Part shown: piece by piece, positions 2,550 through 20,874 of the stretch
How positions within the stretch are numbered: position 1 is the first letter of the stretch
Layout of the letters: each line of letters opens with the position of its first letter
Assembly (NCBI GenBank): GCA_014825775.1
Contig: MVAQ01000288.1
Location: forward strand, 1 to 23,759
Length of the DNA: 23,759 nt
Direction of reading: 5' to 3'
Origin: Krasilnikovozyma curviuscula
Taxonomy: Eukaryota; Basidiomycota; Tremellomycetes; Cystofilobasidiales; Mrakiaceae
Notes under the pieces: model-generated
Databases searched by the model: none
What the model was told of the DNA's origin: nothing
Seen by the model: only the letters and a program-made list of their open reading frames with translations
Made by a program: the position numbers and the translations under genes

Positions 2550-5500
2550 ATGGCCCCCTCAACTGTACCTGATATCGAGAGGATGGCCTCCCCAGCCCCC
2601 TCAGACTCTGTCATATCGATGGACGATCAGTTTTCGCTTACGGCAGGGGAATCTTCAAGGTTCGACTGGCAGAGAACAGACCGCTGTAAGTCTATTTCCT
2701 TGTTCAACTTTCTGTACCGCTCAATTGCATAAGATCCATATGTTTATTTGTATAATCTGACTCGTTGCCATTGGCTCTGGTGTCTCACTTTCCTGCGTGT
2801 AGTTCCCTCGACGTTCTCGCAAGCTGGCATGGACCTCAGCCAGCTGAACCTGGTGTCGCTCTCGAAGCCCTGGAATGCTCCAACCTCTGAACCCGGATTG
2901 AAGCAGAGTTTCCATGGTATGTTTTCTGACCTTGCGGCCTGTAGGGAGCTTGATTTTGAAGACTGACGCTGTCGACGACTCTGTTATACCTACACAGGAC
3001 TCGCCGCTGTCCTATCTCATCCTTCAAAACGACCAGCACCTCTGCGAGCTTCTCGAGTTCCTCTTCCATCCATTCCTCCCCCAGAACCTCTGCCCAAAGT
3101 CTCAAAGAAGGACTTCGAAGAATATCTGAAGGTCATCTCACCAGAATGGGACAGATTCGAAAAGGCACAAAAGGAGAACCATGACCCATCTTCCGCTAGT
3201 AGGAGGGTTTTCGAAGCTGGTGGAGATAGTTTTGCTATTCCCATTGGAGTGAGACCCAAAGAGCTCCTGCCTCTGAACACCATTCCACAGGTCTTCTTCG
3301 AACCAGAGTTCAACCTTGGCAACCCTCACACTTTCGACGTAGTAACAGAAACGGTACCAACTGCTGGTTCATCTAGATCTTTTGGAAAGCAGCTTCAAGC
3401 GTCAGTTTCTCTTGACGATCCTCCACCCTCTCTGAAGCCACTTCGACTGAAGGACGACGGCGAGCTCAGAACACCGACACCTCAGTCAGTCATGAATGAG
3501 CCTCTCGACAGCGAACCAACTCCGAAACCTGAGGATGTCTCAACAAACCAGCTACTTCAAGATAAAATGTCATACTATCTTGACATTGTGGAACAGCACC
3601 TGGTTCTTGAAATATCAAGAAGATCAGCTTCATTCTTTGCAGCTTTGACCAACCTTCAGGATCTGGAGTCGGAATCAAGTTCGTGCCTGTCTAGGATCGA
3701 ATCGCTTCGCAATGAACTGGATCTTTTAGACGACAACCAGGCAAAGAAAGGTCTAAGCGTTATCGAACTGCAGAGAGAGGTTGGAAGGCTGAAGAAGGTT
3801 GACCAGGGAATAACCGATATCAGAGGAATCGAAGAGGCAATCGGAATGATCAAGAACTTGGTTGGTAGTGGTTATGGGTATGATGCTGTCGACATCTGGG
3901 AGGAGGTCGAGTCCTGGCTTAGTAGGAAGGGTAAAAGGGAAGAGAAATCATTACAGCCTCCTTCAACGACAACAGCAACATCAACTGTCTCCGTCGACGA
4001 AAACTCGAACCTTGTTGTCCCACCAAAACGAGTATCATCAGTATCCCCCAAACATTCACCTTCAACCGTCGTCCCGTTACAACCTGCAATTTCATCGTCA
4101 TATTCACCACAGCCCCCTCCAACATCTAAAGACGGATCATCGCTTCCTCCTGTATCAGTTGCATCGGGTTCAAAACTACCACCTCTGACCCCAGCACTAG
4201 AACTTTCAACACTTTCGTCACTATCACACTTACCCAGCACATTGTCATCTCTATCGACCCTGATCGCCGTGCAATTAGAATCTGAACTCCAATCTGTTCT
4301 ACAGTTCGAACTCAATCATCCATCTTCCTTATCACAAGGGAAAGATGGGGAATCAAACAACGATGTGAATAGTGGGGCGGAACGATTCGTTGAAAAGATC
4401 AGGCCGTTGGTGGAGGGACTGCTGAGGGTGAGGAGTGGAGAGAAGATCGTCTCGGCCTACAAGGAGGTGGCCATCAAACAAGTCAGGGAAGCAATCCACA
4501 TTGTAAGTGTCTGTGTGGTTCTAATTGTACTTCTTCGTCAAGGCTGATTTTAAGTCCGAATTACGTTTCCTCAGCACATGCCTCTGGGACACGATCCGTC
4601 TGAAGACCATGATAGCTACACCTCTAACACTCCTATGGCCGAGAAAACTGCTAATTTGGCAAGAAAACTTAAAGATATGGAGCACTCCGAGTTCTTAGTT
4701 GTGGAGAAGAAGATGTTCAAAGGTCTCTTGGATTGTATCCAGCTTTTAGAGAAGTTTGCCAAGGGCGTAGAGGGCATTGTCGAGAAGTTCATGTAAGTGC
4801 CGGCCAAGGTTTGTCAATCTTGTTTTTGGCTAAGTACTAAGGTGATTTCGTGTCAAAACAGCGCAGCACGGGATGCCTCAAATCAAAACAATCCATACTT
4901 CCCATCTGTCCAGCTGTCCTCAGTTCCTACCCTTAACACAATTTCTTTGCCAAAACTTCAACAAGATCTTTCAGACGTTTTATCAACTGCAACTGAGCTT
5001 GCCAATTCCAGAGCATCAAAAGTGGTCGGCATACGAAACGACAAGCATTCGAAACTCAAACTACCCGAGTTCCTGGAAGTCTTCAACGAGGCGTGGTTGT
5101 TCGTTGTCAGTTGTGAGATTATTTGTAGAAAGATGATTGTAGGATTGAGAGGGACAATGGTTGTTCAGGTGAACTTTCCTGACGAGCACTTGATGTAGTC
5201 GCAGTTGCTGATCCTTTGCTGTTACAGGCGAAAACCTTCCTTCAAACATACCACTCGCAAAGGACAGCATCCTCTGCTCGATTGGTTGAGAACGAATTGT
5301 GGGCTCAAGTGGAAATCCCAGCATCCTATCAGCACGCGGTCAACCTCATCGTGGAAGCAGCTGTAACCGATCCGCCAGAGCTTGTTATCATTTCTTCGAC
5401 TCCTCCCTCCGCACCTCAGGCAGCTTCAGACCAGCAAGATGAACCCGGTGAAAAACTTCTCAAGATTGAAGACAAAACCTTCTTTGCTGTTTCAGCTACG

Positions 5501-7770
5501 CTGGAGGTGCTGATGCTGTTGGTGGACTACGTCAAAATCATCATCAATGTCGAAATTCTGACCACCGACGCGATGTCAAAAACGATCGAGTACCTAAAGG
5601 TAATATTCTTTTAGTACCCCTCTTACACACCTCTCTGTCTCTAACATCGTTCATGTCGTTTCTTTTTTTCCTCGTAGTCTTTCAACTCGAGAACGTGTCA
5701 AGTTGTTCTCGGTGCTGGTGCCATGAGGTCTGCTGGTCTGAAGAACATCACAGCCAAACATCTTGCACTAGCCTCTCAGTCCCTTTCGATAACAATCAGC
5801 CTCATTCCTTATATCCGTGAAACCCTCAGGCGTCATCTTAATTCAAAACAAGCAGTGATGCTGGTTGAATTCGACAAACTCAAACGAGTGAGTACTTTGA
5901 ATTATGGTCGCTGTCACAGAGCTTGTCCACTAACGAGCATGTTGTTACTTCCCGACTCAGGACTACCAAGAACATCAGAATGAGATCCATTCTAAACTCG
6001 TTGCTATCATGGCGGATCGTCTGGTACTTCACACCAAATCTCTACAGAGCATTGACTTCGAACAAGTTTCGAAGCATCTCGGTAAACCCAACGAGTACAT
6101 CGAACTGCTCGTAAAAGAAACTACGCAACTCCACAAGATTCTTTCAAAATACCTTCCACAGTCCATTGTCGAAGCTGTCATGAGCCAAGTCTTCGCTAGT
6201 ATGAACCACGCGCTGTCGCTGGAATTCGGGACTATCGAGGTGAAGACGGAAGCTGCGAAGGAGAGGTCAGTTCTTAAGGTCTAATTCTCTGTTCATACAT
6301 GACGTTGTTGACTGACTTCATCCTTTATGATCTTCGTGTAGAATGCTCATCGATGTCTCCTTCCTAGTTAACAAACTCACCGCTCTACCAAATATTACAC
6401 CTATTTCTAAGATTCTGGAGACACTGGTCAAAGACAAACAGCTTCCAAGGCGGCCTCTGGGCCAATCAATGCGGGGTCTGATGCGTCGAAGTAGTTCTCA
6501 AGGGAGTGGACCGAAGGATGAGGAAGCAGCTCCTACCTCGCTGATGGTACCCGAAGCAGATGAACTCATAGTCACTCCAGATGAGTCAGAATACAACTCC
6601 CCCCAAGTTCTAGACGTTCCCCTGCGGGCTGAATCACCTACGCCGCATGAGAGCGTTACAGAGGCTGAAATCACATCACCAGCAGAAGAAAATTCGCCAG
6701 CAGAACAGGAAAGTGCTGTCGCCTCTGATCCTTTGTCTCAACCAATACCATCTCCACCTCCATCTTCGCCTTTGGCATCGCGACTAGAGGCTCTTGCAGC
6801 CGGCGCGACCACTGAATCGCCGAAGCTGGCACCTGAACCGGAAGTGCAACCTACGGCTGCTCTAGAAGAGCTTCTTCCGACACAAGTTGCAGATTCTACC
6901 TCTCAACCTTCATCTACCGTATCAGTCAACTTCACCCCTACCAAGGCTACTTCCACCGCTGCCTCTGTATTCTCTCCAAAATGGACCTCTCCCCTCATAT
7001 CATCCCTTACCAAAGGTGTCCCATCAAAACCCGCGTCTCCCACCCAACAAAATTCTCCGCTTGGTAACAAACCCAGGTCAGCTTCTGCGCTGTCAGACAG
7101 GCTCGCTGCTGCCATGAAACGATCTGCATCTGGTCCTGGGCCGTCTGTCTTAGCGACATCAGAAGCTCAGCTTCCAGCAGCTTCAATACAGCCTTCTACT
7201 ATAACGGTAACATCAGTTCCTTTGGATGGGGTGAAAGAGGCTACAAGTGAACTTTCGACATCAACGGCGTCAGCTTCTGAATCGAATGACCAAGAACTAC
7301 CTCCATCGGTACCATTGAAAGATAAACTGTTATTTGATCCAGAGCCAGAGGTAGAATCTTCAGATCTCCAGACATTTGTTCCACCAACCATCATTATCGA
7401 ACCATCCATCAACAGTTCTGAAGCACATCTGGATGATCCTGTGGATGATACCCAAATCGCTTCGGTAAAGAGAGCAGAAGAAGTTGAGGTTGACGATCCG
7501 TTGATTACTCGTGAAGAATCAGTGACTGTGGAGGTACCTTCTGGAAATAAAGCAAATCCATTGGAGCTTGAGCCGGTCGTCGATGAACCACCACCCCCGA
7601 GGGAGGAGGCAGAGGAGGCAGAGGAGGCGCCGCCGTTGGAAGACACGGAAATTGCCACAACAGCACCTTTAGAGTCAAAAACTGTCCCTGTCGTAGAAGA
7701 TAACCAAGAACATCTGTTGGAAGAGCCAAAGTTGAGCGGAAATGAGGACAAGGTCGAAAAGGCGTCGTAG
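2550..7770 (+). CDS. VPS54: VPS54, GARP tethering complex subunit, with long disordered C-terminal tail
   Basis: Subunit of the Golgi-associated retrograde protein (GARP) complex, which tethers endosome-derived vesicles at the trans-Golgi. Exons: 2550-2685, 2803-2916, 2998-4502, 4575-4792, 4862-5168, 5228-5599, 5678-5887, 5961-6265, 6342-7770. All are in frame, giving 1531 aa. Family marks: LNTIPQVFFEPEFNL near residue 178; DKMSYYLDIVEQHLVLEIS at about 272, starting the coiled-coil N-terminal region; and the signature Vps54 block at about 843-970, containing SFNSRTCQVVLGAGAMRSAG and LKNITAKHLALASQSLS. Recognisable homology ends near residue 1090 (PISKILETLVKDKQLP). The remaining ~435 residues, all in the last exon, are Ser/Pro/Glu/Thr-rich and low complexity. 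Family members are usually about 900-1000 aa, so the tail is an extension. The start at 2550 is followed directly by a good frame; the upstream in-frame ATG at 2493 would extend into the promoter. Confidence 0.95.
7603..7629 (+). repeat. VPS54: 9-bp tandem repeat, three copies (Glu-Glu-Ala), in the VPS54 tail
   Basis: GAGGAGGCA occurs three times in a row, the last copy ending in G, and encodes (EEA)3 in the acidic disordered tail of VPS54. The unit length is a multiple of three, so copy-number changes would keep the frame. Confidence 0.9.
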
Positions 7771-7852: not shown

Positions 7853-8159
7853 TCTGTCTTTACTGTATCTATCGCCGTTTGTTTACACGCGGAAAGTTTT
7901 GCCCGGCTGAGAAGCGCGCATGATTAAGGATTTCGCTCAATTTTGTATGAAGAGTGTAGTATTCTGCACGTTCCACTGACGGCAAAACCTGTCCAACAGC
8001 AGTGCCTATTGCGCTCCGGATAGCTTTTCATTAGCAGAATTTCTATACGCAGCGTGTGCTGACATCGTCCAAGAAGCTGAGCTCTTTTGTTTACCCAATC
8101 AACGATCAACCTGATTGGAAAATGTTGAAACTTATAGCTGAAGAAACTTCTCTTGGGTG

Positions 8160-8780
8160 AGAGCTAGGTCTACACCACAGATTTGTAGGAAAAGGCGAGT
8201 TGACTGATATCGAAGCTCGTCCCATTCCATATCAAATTGCTGGGGCTCATCCGTAGAGCATCTTCGAGATCAGAGAATGAAAGTTAGATGATCCTCAGAG
8301 ATAACAGGGAGCAGCTGTCGCCTACACATCATCTCAAGCCAATGTCTCTTCAGCTCCTTCAGTCCCTCAGCAGCCATCATCAGCACCGAGAAGAGCCATA
8401 ACAAAGCTATACCCCAAGTGCGGCATCTCAGGACTATGCGTGCCAGGTCCATCTCATCTTTACGAACAAGGCGATGGAGGAAGAGCAAACATGACAGAGG
8501 ACGGAAGACCGGAAGCTTTGATTGAGGGGGAAGAATGGCGGGCGCAGAGATCAGCCTGAAGTACGAGATGACGGTGTTAACGAGGAGTATGTGCTGACAC
8601 TTCGAACGGTCGTGTGGTCGGGAGAAAACGCTTTCGAAGTCGACAGGCATACACTTTGTTTACTCTAAGGGGTTTCTTATTTTCGCGACTAGACAATGTC
8701 GTTGACGGGAGGAGTCGCTTTTGGAAGATCAGAGTCGATGGGGAAGGGAAGATCCGAGAACCGAGCAAAATGACTAGCAT
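8160..8780 (-). pseudogene. Doubtful coding remnant, minus strand
   Basis: Minus-strand stretches look more protein-like than random spacer but do not join into one gene. One stretch at about 8780-8695 carries HFARFSDLPFPIDSDLP before a stop. A 126-codon ORF at 8650-8270 includes the helical segment TWGIALLWLFSVLMMAAEGL. A ~38-codon stretch lies just downstream (DMEWDELRYQSTRLFLQ). The helical LLWLF...AAEG...RHWLE pattern loosely recalls the C-terminal region of fungal-specific transcription factors, but there is no Zn2Cys6 finger and little room for one before the next gene's promoter. It could be a decayed gene, a badly spliced real gene or chance. Confidence 0.2.
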
Positions 8781-9168: not shown

Positions 9169-9180
9169 ATGGTAAAATGA
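9169..9180 (+). promoter_or_regulatory. Minimal upstream ORF overlapping the nuclease-phosphatase start
   Basis: A three-codon ORF (Met-Val-Lys-stop) begins 8 bases before the main ATG. Its TGA overlaps the main start as ATGA. A scanning ribosome would meet this ATG first (context CAATGG), so translation of the main frame would need leaky scanning or termination-reinitiation, unless transcription starts downstream of it. Confidence 0.5.
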
Positions 9181-12100
9181 GTGGTCTCTACAAAGGGTAC
9201 ATACCAGAGTATCCAGAAATACGAGTAGATTGCTTCACAAATTCTCACCATGTTAACCCCCTCACTGGAGTCCGATTTCCTCCCACTCGACTCTGGCTCC
9301 TCAGCCACACACACTCAGACCATCTAGCAGGTCTAGAAGGCTATCAGACTGGTGGCCTCAGGATTGTTTGTACCTCAGAAACGAGGGATATCCTCCTTAA
9401 GACGGAGAGGGATAAAGACAGAGTAAACTTCGACAATGACTCTGAACCGGGTAGCAGGCCAGTCATGAAATATCCTGGCATGGTGCAGAAGGCATCTTAT
9501 AACCAGAGAACCAACAGTAAGGTGCCAGGTTGGAATAATTTCGTCAGTTTATTCCCCCGATCTTAAAATCCGGTCGTCCGTGGAGATGACTGACTCTTTT
9601 TCTGGATTATAGAACACCATCTTGGAATACTCTGTACCTGAACTATTTTACATCAACGGTAAAGAAATCACAATCACAGCCTTCCCAGCTAATCATATGC
9701 CTGGGTCCTGCATGTTTCTAATTGAAGGCGGCGACCATGGATCAATTCTACACACCGGTGATGTTCGTTGTGAACCTTCGATGCTGAGAGGTCTTCAACT
9801 GTATCATGGTCTGCGAAAGTACATGGATCCTGCCGCTATTGCGGTGGAAGGAAAAGGAAAAGCCCAGCCAGAGGTTGGACCAAGGTTGATGTTGAGAAGC
9901 ATGCATATCGACACATCCATGCTGTGAGTGATTTCTGAACTAGGACATTCAGTTCTAGCTTTGTTCATTGCTTCTTGGTTACTCACGCATTCAGAATGGG
10001 TACTGGTGAAATGCCGTCTAAGTGCGAGGCTGAAGAAGGAATGATCAGACTGCTGAAGATGTACCCAGAAGATACTCGCTTCTATCTGCATTTTTGGACA
10101 TGGGGGTAAGGCGAAGGTGAAACCAGAGTTTTAGTGTGGAAATGGAACTGATGCCTTGCGCTCGCCGTTAGATACGAGTCGTTGACCGAAGCCATCCTCA
10201 AAGCGTTCCCAGCCGAGACTGTAAGTCTGGCGCTTAAACGAAGACTAGTCAGTACAAAACTTCTCATACTGAAACCTTTTCTTAAGATCCACTTCGATCG
10301 GTATAAACACGATATTCTTGCGAATCCCAAAGCACAGCTCTCTTCGACCCAATTCCTCGTGTCTCGAATCTCTAAGGAAACTTCGTTGTCTCTACAGAAA
10401 AAGTTCAAGTTTCACTGCTGTGATCACAAGAATAAATGCCATGCTGTTCAGTCCCATGAGGTGACTCTCGGTAATCACACTTGCGTAGGTCATGTCGTTC
10501 AGGTCAACCCAACAGAGATGCGGTCGACTGCATGGGATCAGTATCTCCACGAAGTGGAAGCTCATCTGAAGAGAGCAGAACAGGGTATTGATCTCTGGCC
10601 TCACAGAATCGTGAGTGCTCATTTCTTCATCATCTGTATTGTATGTCAAATTTGACTCTTGTCATTGTAGACGGTTCCTTATACACGACACTCGCCTCTC
10701 CCAGAACTGATCTCCATTGTCGAGCTTTTTCGACCTCTCACCATCTACCCCAACACAATTAGAGCTCCCAGCGAGCCGATTGAATATCTCTGTCTGCCTT
10801 CTCTTTTCTCTGGTGTGCTGGAAGATGGAGGTGAAACTCTGTCGCATGAAGTAACCCAATGGGCAGATCTCCAAGACGGGACTCAAAAGCTATGGGTCAA
10901 CATTGCCAAGAAGCTCATCAGAGCAATTGGCGACAGACCAATTCCCAAAGAGTGTGACCATGCGGAGTATTGTGCTATAAAGCTGCAGCAGCTGCGTGAG
11001 CGTGCCTCCAGTGGTGCAGTCAAAGCAGTCGCGACTAGGAACACGACGGTGCAGCATCAGATTCTGGCTTTCATGTTTGGTAACGATCAAGAAGCAGACT
11101 GGAGATCAACTTGTAACAAGACAAAGAACAATGATGAAATAAGCAAATCTCATCCACAAAGTATCCAAGAGTTGTTCCCACCTCCTACATGTGTGAAGAA
11201 CAAGCGCGTCGTTGAATCACCTGCCTCGCACCATGTGGTTTCCTCCGCCGCTACTCTTTCATCCCATCTCGTTACGCGTGATGCGGAGAGCTTACACCTC
11301 CTACAGCCAACAACGGAAGCCGCTCCAAGTGATGATCTTGGGTCAGAGACTTTGGTATCCAAAACTCTGATGGTCTCTGATGTTCCCCCGAGGCCAATGT
11401 CTCTTTCAGGTGAGTGTTTTTCTCAAGATACTCACTGAGTTTCGTCTCTGACGGCAATTGCCTTCGCAGTTATTCAAGCAGCTTCACAAGATGATTATGT
11501 CATGAAGAATCCTTACGAAACTGAAATCTCGACCATGACTCAATGGGTGAAAGCGTTTAAAGCACTGAGGAACAGGGCCATTGAATTGGCTGGACTTCAC
11601 GCCAAACTAACGGAATCCGAAACCGACAAAAATACGTCTTCAAACCAACCTGTGCCAGCTCAACAAGCTGGAAAAAAGCGTGGTGCAGAAGCTATTACTG
11701 TAGATGCGTCCTTCAAGCGGGTGAAACGTTCTCTTTCACAGCCCGAATCATTTTCCGCCATCTTCCTTGACCAATCACCATTAGCAGCTCTATCTGCGAC
11801 TCCTGTTAAAACTCAACCACTTTTATTGGGCGAAGCCGAGCTAACAGGTGCTACCCTCAGTGGCTGTCGTCAAATCACAGATAACACACCTCCGTCTGTA
11901 TTGCACTTTGTCAACTGTCTTCCCCTCAACTCAGGTCCATTCGGGTCTGCCAAAGTCGCATTCTTTGATTTAGACAATACTTTGATCACGACTCAGTCTG
12001 GATCTGTCTTTCAAGTCACGTCGAGAGATTGGAAGTGGATGAACGATGACTATCCGCAGGTGCTGTCGAGGATTTCCAAAGCTGGGTAAGTGTTGATTTT

Positions 12101-12752
12101 GGGGGCAGCTTCGTCACTACCAGCGTCTAATTTATACCTTCTCTATACATAAGATATCATGTCTTCATTGTCAGTAATGACGGAGTACTCTCTCGAGATT
12201 TGGAGAAGCAGGAAAAGTGGGTCAAGAAGATCCACCGTTTTGCAAAATCGGTGAGTATCCTGCTCCCTGCCCTCTGATTTACCTAAGAAAGCTCACTTAG
12301 TTGATTTTCTTCAATTTCTTTTAGATTCCAGACCTGCCATTTACTCTTCTTTGCTCAATCGCTAATGATGAGTACCATAAACCTCAACCTGGCCTCTTTC
12401 ACTTCGCTCAAGAGATCCTTCGCTCCCGCAATTCCGTTACAAGCATCGACATGACAGCAAGCTTCATGGTCGGTGATTGTGCAGGAAGGCATCATAATGC
12501 GTTCCTCAAACGAAGGAAAGATAGTTCTGCGTACGACAAGAACTTCGCCAAAGCTGTCAATTTACCTTTCTTTGCACCGGAGGTAAACAGCCACATTTAT
12601 TTAGTATGAATTTTCGCCATTCTAATTTCTTGCTTGTTGAATAGGAATTTTTTGGAAGGCATCGGTCCACCCTGACCGGTTGTCCCTCATCTCATAACAA
12701 TCCAACTCTACGCCACACGACAATAAATGTTACCACCACTAAAACGACCTGA
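9177..12752 (+). CDS. Artemis/SNM1-like beta-CASP nuclease fused to PNKP/Tpp1-like polynucleotide 3'-phosphatase
   Basis: Predicted bifunctional DNA end-processing protein of 992 aa. Exons: 9177-9542, 9613-9923, 9995-10105, 10172-10220, 10287-10610, 10671-11409, 11470-12085, 12154-12250, 12325-12582, 12645-12752. The N-terminal metallo-beta-lactamase has HTHSDH at 44-49, NHMPGS with H150, and TGDVR with D172. Beta-CASP motif residues follow: D222 in HIDTSM, an FHCCDH segment, and VPYTRHS with H394. Order and spacing look closer to Artemis/DCLRE1C than to Pso2. A ~350-residue linker is Ser/Thr-rich and carries a bipartite-NLS-like KKRG...KRVKR at about 702-720. The C-terminal HAD phosphatase has FDLDNTLIT (D800, D802), IVSND (S846), YHKP (K890), VGDCAGR (D922) and LPFFAPEEFF, the order seen in PNKP and Tpp1. 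No kinase P-loop is visible, so it is phosphatase only. The exon 6/7 junction lies inside the linker and exon 7 spans linker and HAD start. Less certain points: the exon 1 donor (GTCAGT at 9543) and the last exon, which may splice on into a frame ending at 13010. Confidence 0.87.
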
Positions 12753-13210: not shown

Positions 13211-15780
13211 ATGGGACGACGAGCTAAGAACAAACAGGGAGCACCCCAACCTATAGTTCCCGTCCATGAAGGTCTCAAGCGTAAAGCTGACGGTCAAATT
13301 CCTCGTTCTGGAGGGAAGAAGGTGAAGGCGCTGAAGGGCAAAGGTCGAACTTCAGAGAGGATTGAGAAGGGGGCCGTTGATAGTGACGACGAGAAGGAAC
13401 AGGTAAAGAAGGTCAACGCCAAGAAGAGTGTTCCAAAGGGTGAGGTCGAGAGGAGTGTGTTTGACATGGAAGACGACGACGGCGAAATGGAGGAGGATGA
13501 GTTCAACCTAGCAGGAGGGTGAGGCCTACGTTTCAATTTTCTCTTCCTCTGCAATCCTATGCTAATAAACGGATATCCTATGTTCCTAAGGGATGGTGAC
13601 GAAGGAATGCCTGTGAGCACCAATTCAGCTCTCGAAATTTTGTGAAAACGCTCTAAATTCTGATACCATACTCTCACACTCTGTTTAGCGTCCACCTCCT
13701 ATCGCAATGCAGTTTTCTGATTCAGAAGAAGGCTCAGAGGTGAGTCCTGACTTGCATGCTGTCTTCCTGAAATTTTGACCTGAGACGCCGCCAAAATTTC
13801 CTCTCCAGATTGAGGATCTGAACGATATCTCAGATGATGAGATGATCCCTCACGGCGCAGATGATCAGTTCGACTTGGATGAAGGAGAGTTCCCAACCGA
13901 TTCGGAGGATGAGGAGGAGGAGGAAGATACCTCGGGAGCAGAAACCTCTGAAGACGAAGGCGAACCCAAACCCACCAAATCAAAGCGACCGGCAAATGCA
14001 ACCGGAGACTGGTCCGGTTCAGATTCAGAACCAGATGATCCTAATGAAGTTGATATCCAAATTAACGCTCAAATGGCTGAGGAGGACGAAGATTTCGACG
14101 GCGAAGAGCGGTTTGTTCTGCCAACTGAGGAAGAGAAGGTCGCTGAAGCTGAAGGTAGAGCTGAAGGTGGTCTTAGGAAGGTTGAAAAGCGATTAAGAGA
14201 GATTGTTAGGATCTTGGGAGACTGGTCTAAATACGGCGGAAAGGATGGAAGGTGAGTGAGCCGGTCGCAACTGTACTGCATCTACCTTTGCTGACTGTCA
14301 AGTTTTTTACACACTAACACAGGTCGAGGACAGATTACACAACTCAGATGATCTCTGACATCGCAACTTACTATGGTTATAATACCTTCCTCGTCGAGAA
14401 GCTCCTCCACCTTTTCCCAATCTCTGAAGCTATTCCATTCTTCGACGCCAACGAAACTCCACGACCAGTGACGATCCGAACCAACACCCTTCGAACGCGA
14501 CGAAGAGATCTTGCCCAAGCACTCATCAATAGAGGTGTCAACCTGGAACCTATCGGGAAATGGACCAAGGTCGGTCTCCAAGTGTTCGAGTCCGCCGTAC
14601 CGATCGGTGCGACACCAGAGTACCTTGCCGGCCACTACATGCTCCAAGCTGCTTCCTCCTTTTTGCCCGTCATCTCTCTTGCCCCACAGCCTGGTGAAAA
14701 GGTTCTCGACATGGCGTCCAGTCCGGGTGGCAAGACTACCTACATTTCCGCTCTACTTCAAAACACTGGTACTGTCTTCGCCAACGATGCTAACAAGGCG
14801 AGGTTGAAGTCGTTGACTGCAAATGTCCACCGATTGGGATGCAAGAATGTGGTTGTGTGCAACTACGACGGAAGGGAGTTTCCTAAGGTTATGGGTGGAT
14901 TTGACAGGGTCTTATTAGATGCGCCATGTTCAGGAACTGGTGTCATCAGTAAAGATGCGACTGTCAAGGTCAACAAGGTGAATTTGAGATATTCTTTTAA
15001 TCTGAAATTTATTGGATATTGACTTGATTCTCCTACACTTAGTCCGAACGTGATTTCCACCTGCTCTCCCACCTCCAAAAACAACTCATCCTCTGCGCTA
15101 TCGACTCTGTTAATACAGACTCCAAAACTGGAGGCTATATCGTCTACTCCACATGTTCGGTGATGGTGGACGAGAACGAGGCCGTTGTCGACTATGCATT
15201 GAGGAAGAGGCCGGGTGTCAAGCTTGTGGAGACGGGACTCGAGTTCGGAAGAGAGGGATTCACGTCCTTCAGAGGTAAAGATTTCGGGAAGGATATGAAG
15301 ATGACGAGAAGATACTTGCCTCATGTTCACAATGGTTAGTCTTTTGCATTTTCTCGAGGTGACGGAGGACATGTCAAGAAAAGTATTCGCTAATGCCTCC
15401 CTGTCCGCCTCGCCCGTAGTCGACGGTTTCTTCGTTGCCAAATTAAAAGTCTCCAAACCACCAAAGGGATCGAGAGCGAAGAAAGACGCTGCTGAGGATG
15501 AAGAGTTTGTTAGTGACTTTGTTCCTGCACCAGTGAACGAGGAGGAGGAGGCTGAAGCGGAAGCTGAGAAGGAAGCTGCTGATGCTGTCAAGTTCAATGA
15601 TGATGAGGACGAGGCTATCATTCAGGGTGAGTGCTTTCCCTTTCGAGCTCTGTACGAATTTAGTTTCTAATAGTTTCATTTCTTCCATATTCCATAGAAT
15701 CTATGAGGAAACACCTGAAGTCGAAGGGTATCAAGCTGCAACCTAAGTCGGAGGACAAGAAGAAGAAGTCTAATGCGTAA
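13211..15780 (+). CDS. NOP2: NOP2, nucleolar 25S rRNA cytosine-5 methyltransferase
   Basis: SAM-dependent RNA m5C methyltransferase of the NOP2/NSUN1 family. It modifies large-subunit rRNA and is needed for 60S ribosome assembly in the nucleolus. Exons: 13211-13518, 13591-13612, 13689-13739, 13809-14251, 14323-14977, 15043-15334, 15420-15626, 15698-15780; 686 aa. The N-terminus is basic ([22 protein letters not shown]) and followed by long acidic Asp/Glu tracts, typical of nucleolar proteins. The catalytic domain has [11 protein letters not shown], the SAM-binding loop [27 protein letters not shown] with C477, and [12 protein letters not shown] with the catalytic TC cysteine C531. It ends with [18 protein letters not shown]. 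The C-terminal tail is Lys/Glu-rich. The start has a purine-poor but acceptable context, and in-frame sequence upstream lacks family character. Exon 2 is a 22-nt microexon. Confidence 0.97.
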
Positions 15781-16693: not shown

Positions 16694-19218
16694 ATGACCT
16701 CTGACGCAAATTACAAATTCCTTGGCTCTGCTATGGAATCCTTCTCCAGCGCAGGTTTCGATATGTACGTTTTCTCTCTTGAGCTAGTTCTTTCTCCTGC
16801 AATGTTGGATATAGTGTATCTATGCTAGTCTACTGCCAACATGAATGTTGCTGTAGCGCGAACAGCTTCATCATCCATATCTACCGGTGTCCCACTAGGA
16901 TCAACTCGATTCCGCTCTGCTCGAGGCCTTTCACGGGGCTTTTTTTTTGCTGTTCTCCTCTTTTTCATCCTTGAATGAGCCTCTGGACTAACTCTTGCTT
17001 CTTCATATTCTCTCTGCTTTTCATTCTGTCCAATTCGACGATGCTTCGGGTTATGGAATTTCCTTCGCCCATTTTTATCGCGTGACCTCATTTTCTTGCT
17101 TCTGGACTTTGGCGTTTTCTCTGTCTCAACACTTGGTTCAATGGATACTCACAGGGACAAGATCCACATCAAGAGAAATGCTCCAGTTGCTACCCTCTAC
17201 GAAGATGCCATCAAGAATGAAGGCGCCGTTATTTCTTCGTCTGGTGCCCTCATCAACTTCTCTGGAAAGAAGACTGGCCGATCTCCAAAGGACAAGCGTG
17301 TCGTTTACGAAGAGACGTCAAAGGACGACGTCTGGTGGGGCAGTGTTAACATCAAGATGGAGTGAGTCTCTTTTCGCCCTTTCACATGCTCGGTGACTGA
17401 CGACCTCCTTTTTGTTTCTTTTTTAAGCGAGCACACATTCGAAATTAACAGGGAACGTGCTATCGATTACCTAAACACAAGAGAGAACGTCTATGTATTC
17501 GATGGCTTCGCTGGAGTGAGTGGACTTGATGTCTAATGACTCCTTCTCATGTGACACTTGACTGATTTCAGCTCTCGATTGCTTTCTACTCCAGGCTGAT
17601 CCAAAGTACAGGCTCAAAATCCGTGTCATTGCTTCTCGAGCTTACCACGCTTTGTTCATGGTGCGTTTTTCAGTTGATGTCTTGAATTAAGATGACGGCA
17701 AATGTTGACCCTTGTTTTTATTTTTTTGTCTTCTCCTCTCCAGAACAACATGCTTATTCGACCAACTGAAGAAGAACTTGAGAACTTCGGGGAGCCGGAT
17801 TTCATCATCTACAACGCTGGCCAATTCCCAGCTAACAGATTCACTACTGGCATGACCTCGACGACCTCCGTCGAGATCAATTTCAAGAGAATGGAGATGG
17901 TCATCCTCGGTACTGAATACGCTGGCGAGATGAAGAAGGGTGTCTTCTCTGTGATGCACTACATCATGCCTGTCAAGTACAAGCAGTTGTCTCTGCATTC
18001 TTCCGCAAACGAAGGTGTCGAGAGCAAGGATGTAACCCTCTTCTTTGGTCTATCTGGAACAGGAAAGACGTGAGTTCGCTTTGGTCGCATCGCTGTTGTG
18101 GTCTGTGTCTCACTTTTAGAAAACTTTTTATTCGATTCAGCACCCTTTCCACCGATCCAAAGCGTGCGCTCATTGGTGACGACGAGCATGTCTGGGCTGA
18201 CACTGGTGTTTTCAACATCGAAGGTGGTTGTTACGCCAAGTGCATCAACTTGTGAGTATCTATTTTAACCTTTTTTTTCGTTTGTACCAGAAACTGAAAT
18301 TGCTCTTTCCCAGGTCCAAGGAGAAGGAGCCAGAAATTTACAACGCTATCCGATACGGTGCTATCCTCGAAAACGTCGTTTATGACCCATCCAACCGAAA
18401 ACCAGACTACGACGATGTATCCATTACTGAAAACACCAGATGTGCTTACCCAATCGATTACATTGAGGGTGCTCTTCCAGGCTCCCGATCAGTCCACCAA
18501 CCAAAGAACTTGGTCTTCTTGACTTGCGACGCATACGGTGTCTTGCCCCCTGTCTCCAAATTGACTCCTGAACAGGCTTCTTACCACTTCGTTGCTGGAT
18601 ACACCTCCAAGACCCCCGGGACTGAGGATGGTATCTTGGAACCCTCTCGTTAGTAGTCGCCTTCACAATTGGTTTCCTTTCCTGCCTCGCCTGATCCTTT
18701 TTCTCTTCCTGCCTTAAATAGCAACGTTCTCTACATGTTACGGTCAACCATTCATCATTCTCCACCCAGCACGTTACGCCGAGATGTTGGCTGAGCGCAT
18801 GTCTGCCACCAAGGCCGACTGCTACCTCATCAACACTGGCTGGACCGGCGGTAAATTCGGCCAAGGAAAGAGATGTCCTCTCAAATATACCCGAGCGATC
18901 GTCGACGCCATCCACAACGGCACCCTCGCCCAGGCAGAGTACGAAAACTTCCCTATCTTCAACCTGTCGATTCCAAAAGCCATCCCAGGCGTTCCATCTG
19001 AAATTTTGAACCCAGCTAAGGCATGGCCATCATCTGATGCCTTCAACGTTGAGGTCACCAAGCTTGCTGGTGCGTTTCCACCCCTGTTTTTCTCCATAGT
19101 TTGCCTCACTTCTAACCTATTCCTTGTCTTCCCTTCTCCAGGCATGTTCAACAAGGCCTTCACGAAGTACGAAGATGGCGTTTCAGAAAAGGTCTTGAAA
19201 GCCGGACCACTCCTGTAA
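16694..19218 (+). CDS. PCK1: Phosphoenolpyruvate carboxykinase (ATP)
   Basis: Converts oxaloacetate and ATP to phosphoenolpyruvate, ADP and CO2, the committed step of gluconeogenesis; cytosolic. Exons: 16694-16764, 17155-17361, 17428-17515, 17595-17660, 17744-18069, 18141-18251, 18314-18648, 18722-19069, 19142-19218; 542 aa, the usual length for the fungal ATP-dependent form. Motifs: [13 protein letters not shown], the phosphate-binding P-loop GLSGTGKTT at 246-254, the metal-binding kinase-2 motif GDDEHVW at 265-271, and [14 protein letters not shown] near the C-terminal region. The codon for T253 in the P-loop is split by the fifth intron. The first intron (16765-17154) is 390 nt, far longer than the others; joining exons 1 and 2 gives [15 protein letters not shown], which fits the family without missing residues. 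Codon use looks C-ending in places (AAC, GTC, TTC), consistent with high expression. The upstream region suggests carbon-source control. Confidence 0.98.
16765..17154 (+). other. PCK1: Unusually long first intron of PCK1
   Basis: A 390-nt intron (GTACGT donor, ACTCACAG acceptor) in a window where coding introns are mostly 50-100 nt. The plus strand is pyrimidine-rich with a T9 run. The minus strand holds an 88-codon ORF (17091-16825) that is very rich in Lys/Arg, which is what a pyrimidine-rich complement would produce, although its last 25 residues are more balanced. No snoRNA boxes could be placed convincingly. Confidence 0.85.
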
Positions 19219-19534: not shown

Positions 19535-20874
19535 CTATAGCGCTGGACGCGCTGGTCCATTCATCTCGTTCGGACTGTAGGCGGTCTGCAAATTAACGAA
19601 GAATCCATCAGAATCAGATTAGGTCGGTTAAGCATTGGCATGAAGCTTTACCCCATGAGATTGCCATATTGGCCACGCCTAGAAGGATCTTTCTCCCGCT
19701 TCGCAAGCGTCTTCTTCACTTTTCTCTCCGGTCGGACGACGATGCATGGAACAGAACTGGATTTTCAATAGAAAGAGTAATTAGGCGATACATGGGGTTG
19801 ATAAGGGGACACGAGGAGGGGACTTACGAATGCGACACGCAGTATCTAGATACACTGCCCATCTTGCTCGTTCCAAGAATTTCACCGAATGCTTGGAGTT
19901 TTCCTCTCGACTAGAACCAGATGCAAAGGAGAAAGTAATTGTGAGTAGCTGAACGTAGCGCGAATCAGGATTCACAGACTCGGAGAATGAGGGCACGTAC
20001 CCCCTTTGTTCCCACAATCAGACTGTCAGGTCTATACAGCGCAATCAACCTCATCTGGAAAACAAACAATAGCAATATAAGTTAAGAGATCGGGCATTTG
20101 ATGATCTCTGGTGACTGACAATCTGTTCTGTGATCTTCCCGACGACGAACTCGACGACAATTGATATCTTTCGGTCTTCATCAATGTCGTCATTCTTCTC
20201 CGCAATCTCCTTCAACAGCTCATGAGCGTCATCCTTCAGATCCTGTTCCTTTCTCGCACTAGGCTTTTCTGTAGCGTAAACATACAAATTGGTAGAATCG
20301 TCAGGAGTAAGTGCGGCCGGAGCGGGGAGCTGGAATGGCCACTTACCTTCCCAATCTATTACTCTCAACGCTACAATCTCATCGCCCTCCTCTACCAAGG
20401 ATTCAAGAAGCCAGTCGAGGGCCTCCTCTCCGCTCTCGTCTGGCGACACTGCTACGAGGAACAACCTACTCTGCCTCGTCTTCGCGAACCCTTCTGATGA
20501 CGCCTGCTCGAGGTGAGGACCCATGTCAGTGACACGGACGGACCTACTTCTGTGGAGCATCATATCACCGTCAGACTTACCTGTAGCGTAAACGTAAAAG
20601 GGGTATCATCTGATTCGTCCAGCTCGAACCCTACCTTCGCTCGATACTGTTGAGCTCCAGCCTCACCCGAGCTCACTGTCCTCGTCCTCGTGAACGAGTT
20701 CCCTCTCAGGTTAGGGGGCCTCTCTGTCGACGGGGTTACGTTGGACGGGAAATGGATCGCTGGCTGAGACATACTGCCATCTGCTGCGTTTGGCAAAGCC
20801 GACGACGACTCAGAAGGACTGTAAGAGGATGAGTTCTTGAGGACTGGCTTTGGTGGTGGGGGCTGTAATGACAT
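19535..20874 (-). CDS. Universal stress protein (UspA-like) domain protein
   Basis: Nucleotide-binding-fold protein of the fungal USP family; the cellular role of these is mostly unknown. Exons on the minus strand: 20874-20581, 20503-20347, 20268-20120, 20054-20001, 19910-19828, 19756-19652, then a last exon from 19585 (stop at 19561, 288 aa) or from 19574 (stop at 19535, 293 aa). The N-terminal ~100 residues are Ser/Pro-rich and disordered. The USP domain runs from about residue 108: SRLFLVAVSPDESGEEALDW opens it, then GDEIVALRVID. The ATP-type loop follows as IVGTKGSRGKLQ...GTSKMGSVSRYCVSHSSVPCIVVRPER. The G-x2-G and G-S/T elements are present, so ATP binding is plausible. A basic tail follows (KVKKTLAKREKDPSRR). 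It lies head-to-head with the hydrolase gene. Confidence 0.9.

Follow-up and report, generated by a model that had tools for sequence, protein, structure and literature searches.

A 23,759-nt stretch of the Krasilnikovozyma curviuscula genome (the window, free of N, in a 22.4 Mb assembly of 387 contigs) contains a gene in which two DNA repair enzymes appear to have been joined. The gene, with a coding region at 9177..12752 on the plus strand, probably gives rise to one nuclear protein that combines an Artemis-type endonuclease, a flexible linker carrying an import signal and a DNA 3'-phosphatase, and that would serve in the cleaning of DNA ends. As read from the sequence, the domain architecture is well supported as both real and unusual. 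The most likely function is that of a nuclear end-cleaning enzyme for double-strand breaks; nuclease and 3'-phosphatase activity, nuclear import and joint action in end joining are all predicted properties.

Gene model

The preliminary description of this DNA had proposed ten exons that join without a stop, and this was reproduced: from ATG to TGA, the exons of 9177-12752 splice in silico to a single stop-free frame of about 992 residues. The first intron offers two frame-compatible donors, at 9522 and 9543, which give proteins of 985 and 992 residues and end exon 1 at 9521 or 9542, respectively. By a donor profile built on the eight other introns, which themselves score 6.3 to 10.7, the values are +4.5 for 9543 and -1.5 for 9522. 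Thus, 9543 appears to be the better donor, yet is weak itself; with this donor, the introns of the gene range from 60 to 74 nt. Searches used the 985-residue version, in which residue numbers past 115 are lower by 7 than in the 992-residue numbering applied to the motif residues below.

The nuclease half

By homology, the N-terminal 445 residues constitute an Artemis-type nuclease of the metallo-beta-lactamase (MBL)/beta-CASP kind. Exon 1 (9177..9542) encodes motif 1 (Asp18) and HTHSDH at residues 44-49, and exon 2 (9613..9923) motif 3 (His150), motif 4 (Asp172) and motif A (Asp222). The beta-CASP region includes exon 3 (9995..10105), in which a TWGYE motif begins, and exon 4 (10172..10220); exon 5 (10287..10610) holds the Artemis-type zinc ligands His281, His322 and Cys324 together with the candidate Cys330. 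Exon 6 (10671..11409) contributes motif B (YTRHS, His394), the end of the nuclease homology near residue 445 and the first half of the spacer. The SNM1-family motifs (D18, H44/H46/D48/H49, H150, D172, D222, H394) are therefore complete in the fusion. The metal-binding and catalytic set listed in the preliminary description (HTHSDH, H150, D172, D222, H394) was recovered in full, with identical residue numbers when donor 9543 is taken. In a Pfam scan of the 985-residue protein, Lactamase_B_2 scored 29.5 bits (E 6.9e-7), above its curated cut-off of 27. Among solved structures, the N-terminal part matched Apollo (2e-10), Artemis (8e-8) and SNM1A (5e-5).

A search with residues 30-260 retrieved 49 proteins among 404 candidates, with E values from 4e-41 to 1.8e-7 and lengths of 608-1284 residues. 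All of the 46 relatives that carry an organism name are fungal, from Agaricomycetes, one Rhodosporidiobolus and Sordariomycetes, and at least 12 are labelled Protein artemis by a source. In a first alignment of the fusion with 15 of the 49 relatives, H44, H46, D48, H49, H150, D172, D222 and H394 are invariant in the 16 aligned rows, and Asp18 almost so.

A second alignment, from which a tree was also built, comprised the fusion, 16 hand-chosen relatives of the 49, human Artemis, Apollo and SNM1A, and the Pso2-like protein of the same genome. According to PMC7458816 and PMC8450076, a second zinc site in the beta-CASP domain is unique to Artemis, with human ligands His228, His254, Cys256 and Cys272. 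The columns of the first three ligands are aligned and conserved in the fusion and in 16 of the 16 fungal rows. More specifically, the first His and the Cys occur in the fusion, the 16 fungal rows and human Artemis and are absent from Apollo, SNM1A and the Pso2-like protein, while the His254 position is general in the family. The candidate for the fourth ligand, Cys330, is kept in 16 rows but lies 6 residues past Cys324, compared with a human spacing of 16. An Artemis-type zinc site is thus probable in the fusion.

The 5'-phosphate pocket of SNM1A/B, whose residues are described in PMC8450094, is altered in the fusion. Apollo Y182, K186 and D275 correspond to W, Y and R, and S274 to T; T257 is kept, and S258 aligns beside a gap. 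In the tree, the fusion, the fungal rows and human Artemis group together (support 99/94), apart from Apollo, SNM1A and the Pso2-like protein. Within this group the fusion falls among the basidiomycete rows (98/94), outside the sampled Agaricomycetes and weakly adjacent to Rhodosporidiobolus (86/79). Branches are long for human Artemis, the fusion, Apollo and the Pso2-like row, and the grouping with human Artemis is less sure for that reason. Three of the four zinc ligands align, the two key pocket side chains Y182 and K186 are replaced and the tree unites the fusion with human Artemis. The Artemis-type assignment made in the preliminary description is thus supported by more than MBL motifs of a general kind, although by plain similarity Apollo scores equally well or better.

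The phosphatase half

The second half of the protein begins in exon 7 (11470..12085), where the remainder of the spacer is followed by DLDNTL (Asp800/Asp802). Exon 8 (12154..12250) supplies HAD motif II (Ser846), exon 9 (12325..12582) Lys890 and Asp922 (VGDCAGR), and exon 10 (12645..12752) the end of the domain (EFFGRH) and a C-terminal tail. These residues, which we take to be catalytic, are all present, and the HAD set D800/D802, S846, K890 and D922 of the preliminary description is found, residue for residue, with donor 9543. PNK3P (PF08645) matched residues 795-960 along the whole model (1-161) with 137.1 bits against a cut-off of 22 (E 6e-40), in support of the earlier claim of a PNKP-type 3'-phosphatase, and among solved structures the C-terminal part matched PNKP (E 6e-21).

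Identity of the fused phosphatase to the 1yj5 chain (presumably mouse PNKP) is 36%; it is 33% against a wasp PNKP (P0001) and 31% against the separate PNKP of its own genome, whose phosphatase is in turn 43% identical to 1yj5. Hence the fused domain does not stem from a recent duplication of that separate PNKP. Neither a kinase domain (E 0.1) nor an FHA domain was matched in the 985-residue protein with Pfam. Taken together, membership of the PNK3P family is supported and 3'-phosphatase activity is predicted, with caution advised by substitutions near the catalytic residues that are considered below.

The spacer and intron 6

The halves are separated by a spacer of 346 residues that gave no Pfam match even at E 1. 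Its fraction of disorder-promoting residues is 0.695, compared with 0.598 for the nuclease and 0.624 for the phosphatase. The nuclear-localisation-like motif that had been noted between the halves lies in the exon 7 part of the spacer, as KKRG...KRVKR; we regard it as resembling a nuclear import signal.

Both exons that contribute to the spacer are open up to the intron that divides it. Exon 6 remains open for 188 codons past the end of the nuclease homology without a stop, whereas the five other frames contain 4-13 stops; in similar fashion, exon 7 is open for 160 codons ahead of PNK3P, the five other frames containing 7-12. In base-composition shuffles, the same frames were open at rates of 0.0001 (exon 6) and 0.0004 (exon 7). 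In all seven pieces scored, five of which are spacer, codon use is better in the expected frame than in the two other plus-strand frames, but in three of these pieces a minus-strand frame outscores it. Upstream of the gene, one stop-rich frame of 8100-8700 reaches 0.069 bits per codon, equal to the weaker spacer pieces, and the training set was rough, including antisense open reading frames (ORFs) that are probably not genes; the codon scores are thus weak evidence.

Intron 6 (11410..11469, plus strand, 60 nt) has the donor CAG/GTGAGT, a CTGAC 17 nt before its end and a GCAG acceptor, and splicing at these signals would join the halves. The TGA at 11436-11438 within it is the sole in-frame stop between them. 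Intron 6 conforms to the pattern GTGAGT-CTGAC-CAG at intron spacing, of which the window contains two instances where 0.33 would be expected (at least two in 5 of 100 shuffles); a looser intron pattern is found seven times, always on the plus strand, against 2.6 expected (at least seven in 3 of 100 shuffles). A second acceptor CAG at 11481 likewise preserves the frame, and the pattern match extends to there.

Alternative explanations

Several observations weigh against a single Artemis-phosphatase chain of the kind proposed. DRMBL scored 17.5 bits in the Pfam scan, under its cut-off of 22, so that of the domain profiles suggested as a check in the preliminary description, PNK3P and Lactamase_B_2 exceeded their cut-offs and DRMBL did not. 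A profile of 16 rows placed Apollo (E 7e-41) slightly ahead of Artemis (8e-39), and Apollo also has a Cys in the Cys330 column. What the fusion has in common with Artemis (SNM1C, DCLRE1C) is the MBL/beta-CASP core with its complete set of metal ligands, three of the four zinc ligands and GYE in place of GKE. It differs in its C-terminal PNK3P domain, in the spacing of the fourth zinc ligand if this is Cys330, in having Arg at the position of human Phe318, which fills the phosphate pocket, and in the Ser of HTHSDH, which is found in 14 of 16 fungal rows where human Artemis reads HCHKDH. PMC8450094 records this Ser of HxHxDH as present in SNM1A/B/Pso2 and absent from human Artemis and states no rule for the family. 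PNK3P is missing from the precomputed domains of all 49 nuclease-half relatives, and the architecture comes from one genome. No match to XRCC4, DNA-PKcs, Tdp1 or the ligase IV tail was obtained in the genome, where the controls were silent too, and no conclusion follows from this. An identity as Apollo was considered, as Apollo slightly outscored Artemis in the single-sequence comparison and again in the profile comparison, and was dropped on the zinc ligands, the altered pocket and the tree.

The point at which the chain could break is intron 6. Were it left unspliced, an Artemis gene would end at TGA 11436-11438 and a small stand-alone 3'-phosphatase could start at one of two in-frame ATGs of exon 7, at 11502 or at 11535, the latter preceded by ACC and a possible internal start that also counts against a single chain; the 49 relatives without a second half would fit two such genes. 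However, the gap from stop to start would be merely 63 or 96 nt, with little room for a terminator, a promoter and leaders, and the intron has a strong donor, branch and acceptor with open frame right up to it on both sides. Other long ORFs of the plus strand come no closer to the gene than about 1.4 kb upstream (ending at 7767) and about 450 nt downstream, and an arrangement of two adjacent genes is quite unlikely. Alternatively, both forms may be made, spliced transcripts giving the fusion and retained ones an Artemis-only protein of 635 residues in the 985-residue model (about 642 in the 992-residue model), so that splicing would set the share of phosphatase. This is consistent with an intron whose length is a multiple of three and which carries the single stop, and with relatives lacking PNK3P at 608-1284 residues. 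The introns of the gene measure 60-74 nt, however, so 60 nt is not special, nothing points to retention under regulation, and transcripts that keep an intron are often degraded; dual products seem unlikely.

A fusion that is real may nevertheless possess a phosphatase half that is inactive or acts on another substrate, serving as a DNA- or protein-binding module. Three substitutions adjoining catalytic residues, SND for (S/T)NQ, HKP for RKP and GDCAGR for GDAAGR, occur where 1yj5, the wasp protein and the PNKP of the same genome are conserved. They also speak against a conventional 3'-phosphatase, the identities are 31-36%, and a separate PNKP is available for the 3'-phosphatase job. The fused domain nevertheless retains both Asp residues, the Ser of motif II, the Lys and the final Asp, and the PNK3P match leaves no part of the model uncovered, which makes such a module doubtful. 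An artefact of assembly or gene modelling that united two unrelated genes is conceivable in a 387-contig draft of a single genome; as the window is free of N and the junction is flanked on either side by a long open stretch, both in the same frame, it is highly improbable.

Distribution and genomic context

The separate PNKP (C11:29761-30437, L011) is the only other PNK3P match of the genome and is accompanied downstream by AAA_33 kinase pieces below cut-off. Its presence implies that the fusion would be an addition to, and not a replacement of, the ordinary enzyme. DRMBL has a single match in the genome, a Pso2/SNM1A-like gene on contig C374 (L012:1200-2760; SNM1A E 1.5e-59). A second Artemis-type gene was not found by scans with DRMBL (one match) and Lactamase_B_2 (five matches), but these scans missed the fusion itself. 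With the whole fusion protein as query, the genome yielded just the fusion gene and a single weak C11 PNKP exon, and the Pso2-like gene was missed.

Two head-to-tail MBL genes with repeated motifs at C66:150000-158500 (L016), presumably of the tRNase Z long form, resemble a tandem duplication. Ku matches fall at two genomic loci; an ORF from the second (L026), which is not the Ku-matching stretch, had no Pfam match. Of the four DNA ligase loci, the one on C133 includes an exon with a match to DNA ligase 4 (E 2e-10). A 578-residue open frame at C122:57409-57987 (L027) has ATP-dependent DNA ligase domains and matched solved ligases weakly (best E 2e-4, ligase 1); judged by its domains, it is a divergent DNA ligase.

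Within the window, the neighbours of the fusion gene are a Vps54-like ORF just under cut-off upstream (2967-4544) and, downstream, ORFs for an RsmB/F-type rRNA methyltransferase (14318-15019), PEPCK (17696-18070) and a Usp-like protein (20054-20605). Nothing in this neighbourhood suggests a repair cluster.

Beyond this genome, a phosphatase-region search of proteins of about 540-1720 residues gave one match among 195 candidates, an insect PNKP of 575 residues, and no fused protein. Ordinary fungal PNKPs and stand-alone Tpp1 are under about 540 residues and hence outside that range. With phmmer against 50 collected proteins, the phosphatase half found the wasp PNKP only and the spacer none. A whole-length search had no match among 7994 candidates, a weak negative, as residues 30-260 alone found 49 relatives. 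No Tremellomycete protein was among the named matches of these searches, which says nothing of the presence of the gene in close relatives.

That the architecture was undescribed, as the preliminary description had supposed, agrees with the literature searched, in which most subscription papers were not covered: no account of an Artemis-phosphatase fusion was found, nor anything pairing PNK3P with DRMBL or with Artemis. The fusion is likewise undescribed in the available portions of PMC9779921, PMC8450094, PMC7458816, PMC3198793, PMC12204325, PMC3547747 and PMC8450076.

Proposed role and significance

Budding-yeast Tpp1 is a small stand-alone 3'-phosphatase. The fusion resembles PNKP and Tpp1 in its full PNK3P domain and core catalytic residues, and differs from them in being attached to a nuclease, in lacking a kinase or FHA match and in its distance from the PNKP of the same genome. 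In mammals, as set out in PMC3547747, Artemis trims overhangs, hairpins and blocked ends with a loss of bases, PNKP renders 3'-phosphate and 5'-hydroxyl ends ligatable, and PNKP is recruited to end joining by an FHA domain that binds XRCC4.

The single-chain enzyme favoured here may act where Ku and ligase IV hold a broken end. Hairpins, overhangs or damaged ends would be cleaved by its nuclease half, and a 3'-phosphate would be converted to 3'-OH by its phosphatase half without base loss, such that one recruited chain could make an end ligatable either with or without the loss of bases. As the fusion has no FHA match, the tether to the nuclease could substitute for FHA-based recruitment.

Plant DNA ligase 6, in which, according to PMC3198793, a beta-lactamase domain with a beta-CASP motif is joined to another end-joining activity, is the nearest precedent for such a merger. 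Its partner domain is a ligase and not a phosphatase, and it belongs to plants. Bacterial LigD, too, is a single end-joining chain that performs several steps of end processing, 3'-phosphate removal among them, but its domains are unrelated to those of the fusion.

A broader picture, in which a fungal lineage has hard-wired Artemis to a 3'-phosphatase beside an ordinary PNKP and splicing of a 60-nt intron sets whether the phosphatase is present, is put forward tentatively and is rather unlikely in full. Animals make Artemis and PNKP as separate proteins; a natural fusion of the two suggests that both act on the same ends in this fungus. The fusion would allow the order of end processing to be studied within one chain, and may open Artemis function to study in a fungus, a topic that is thin in the literature searched.

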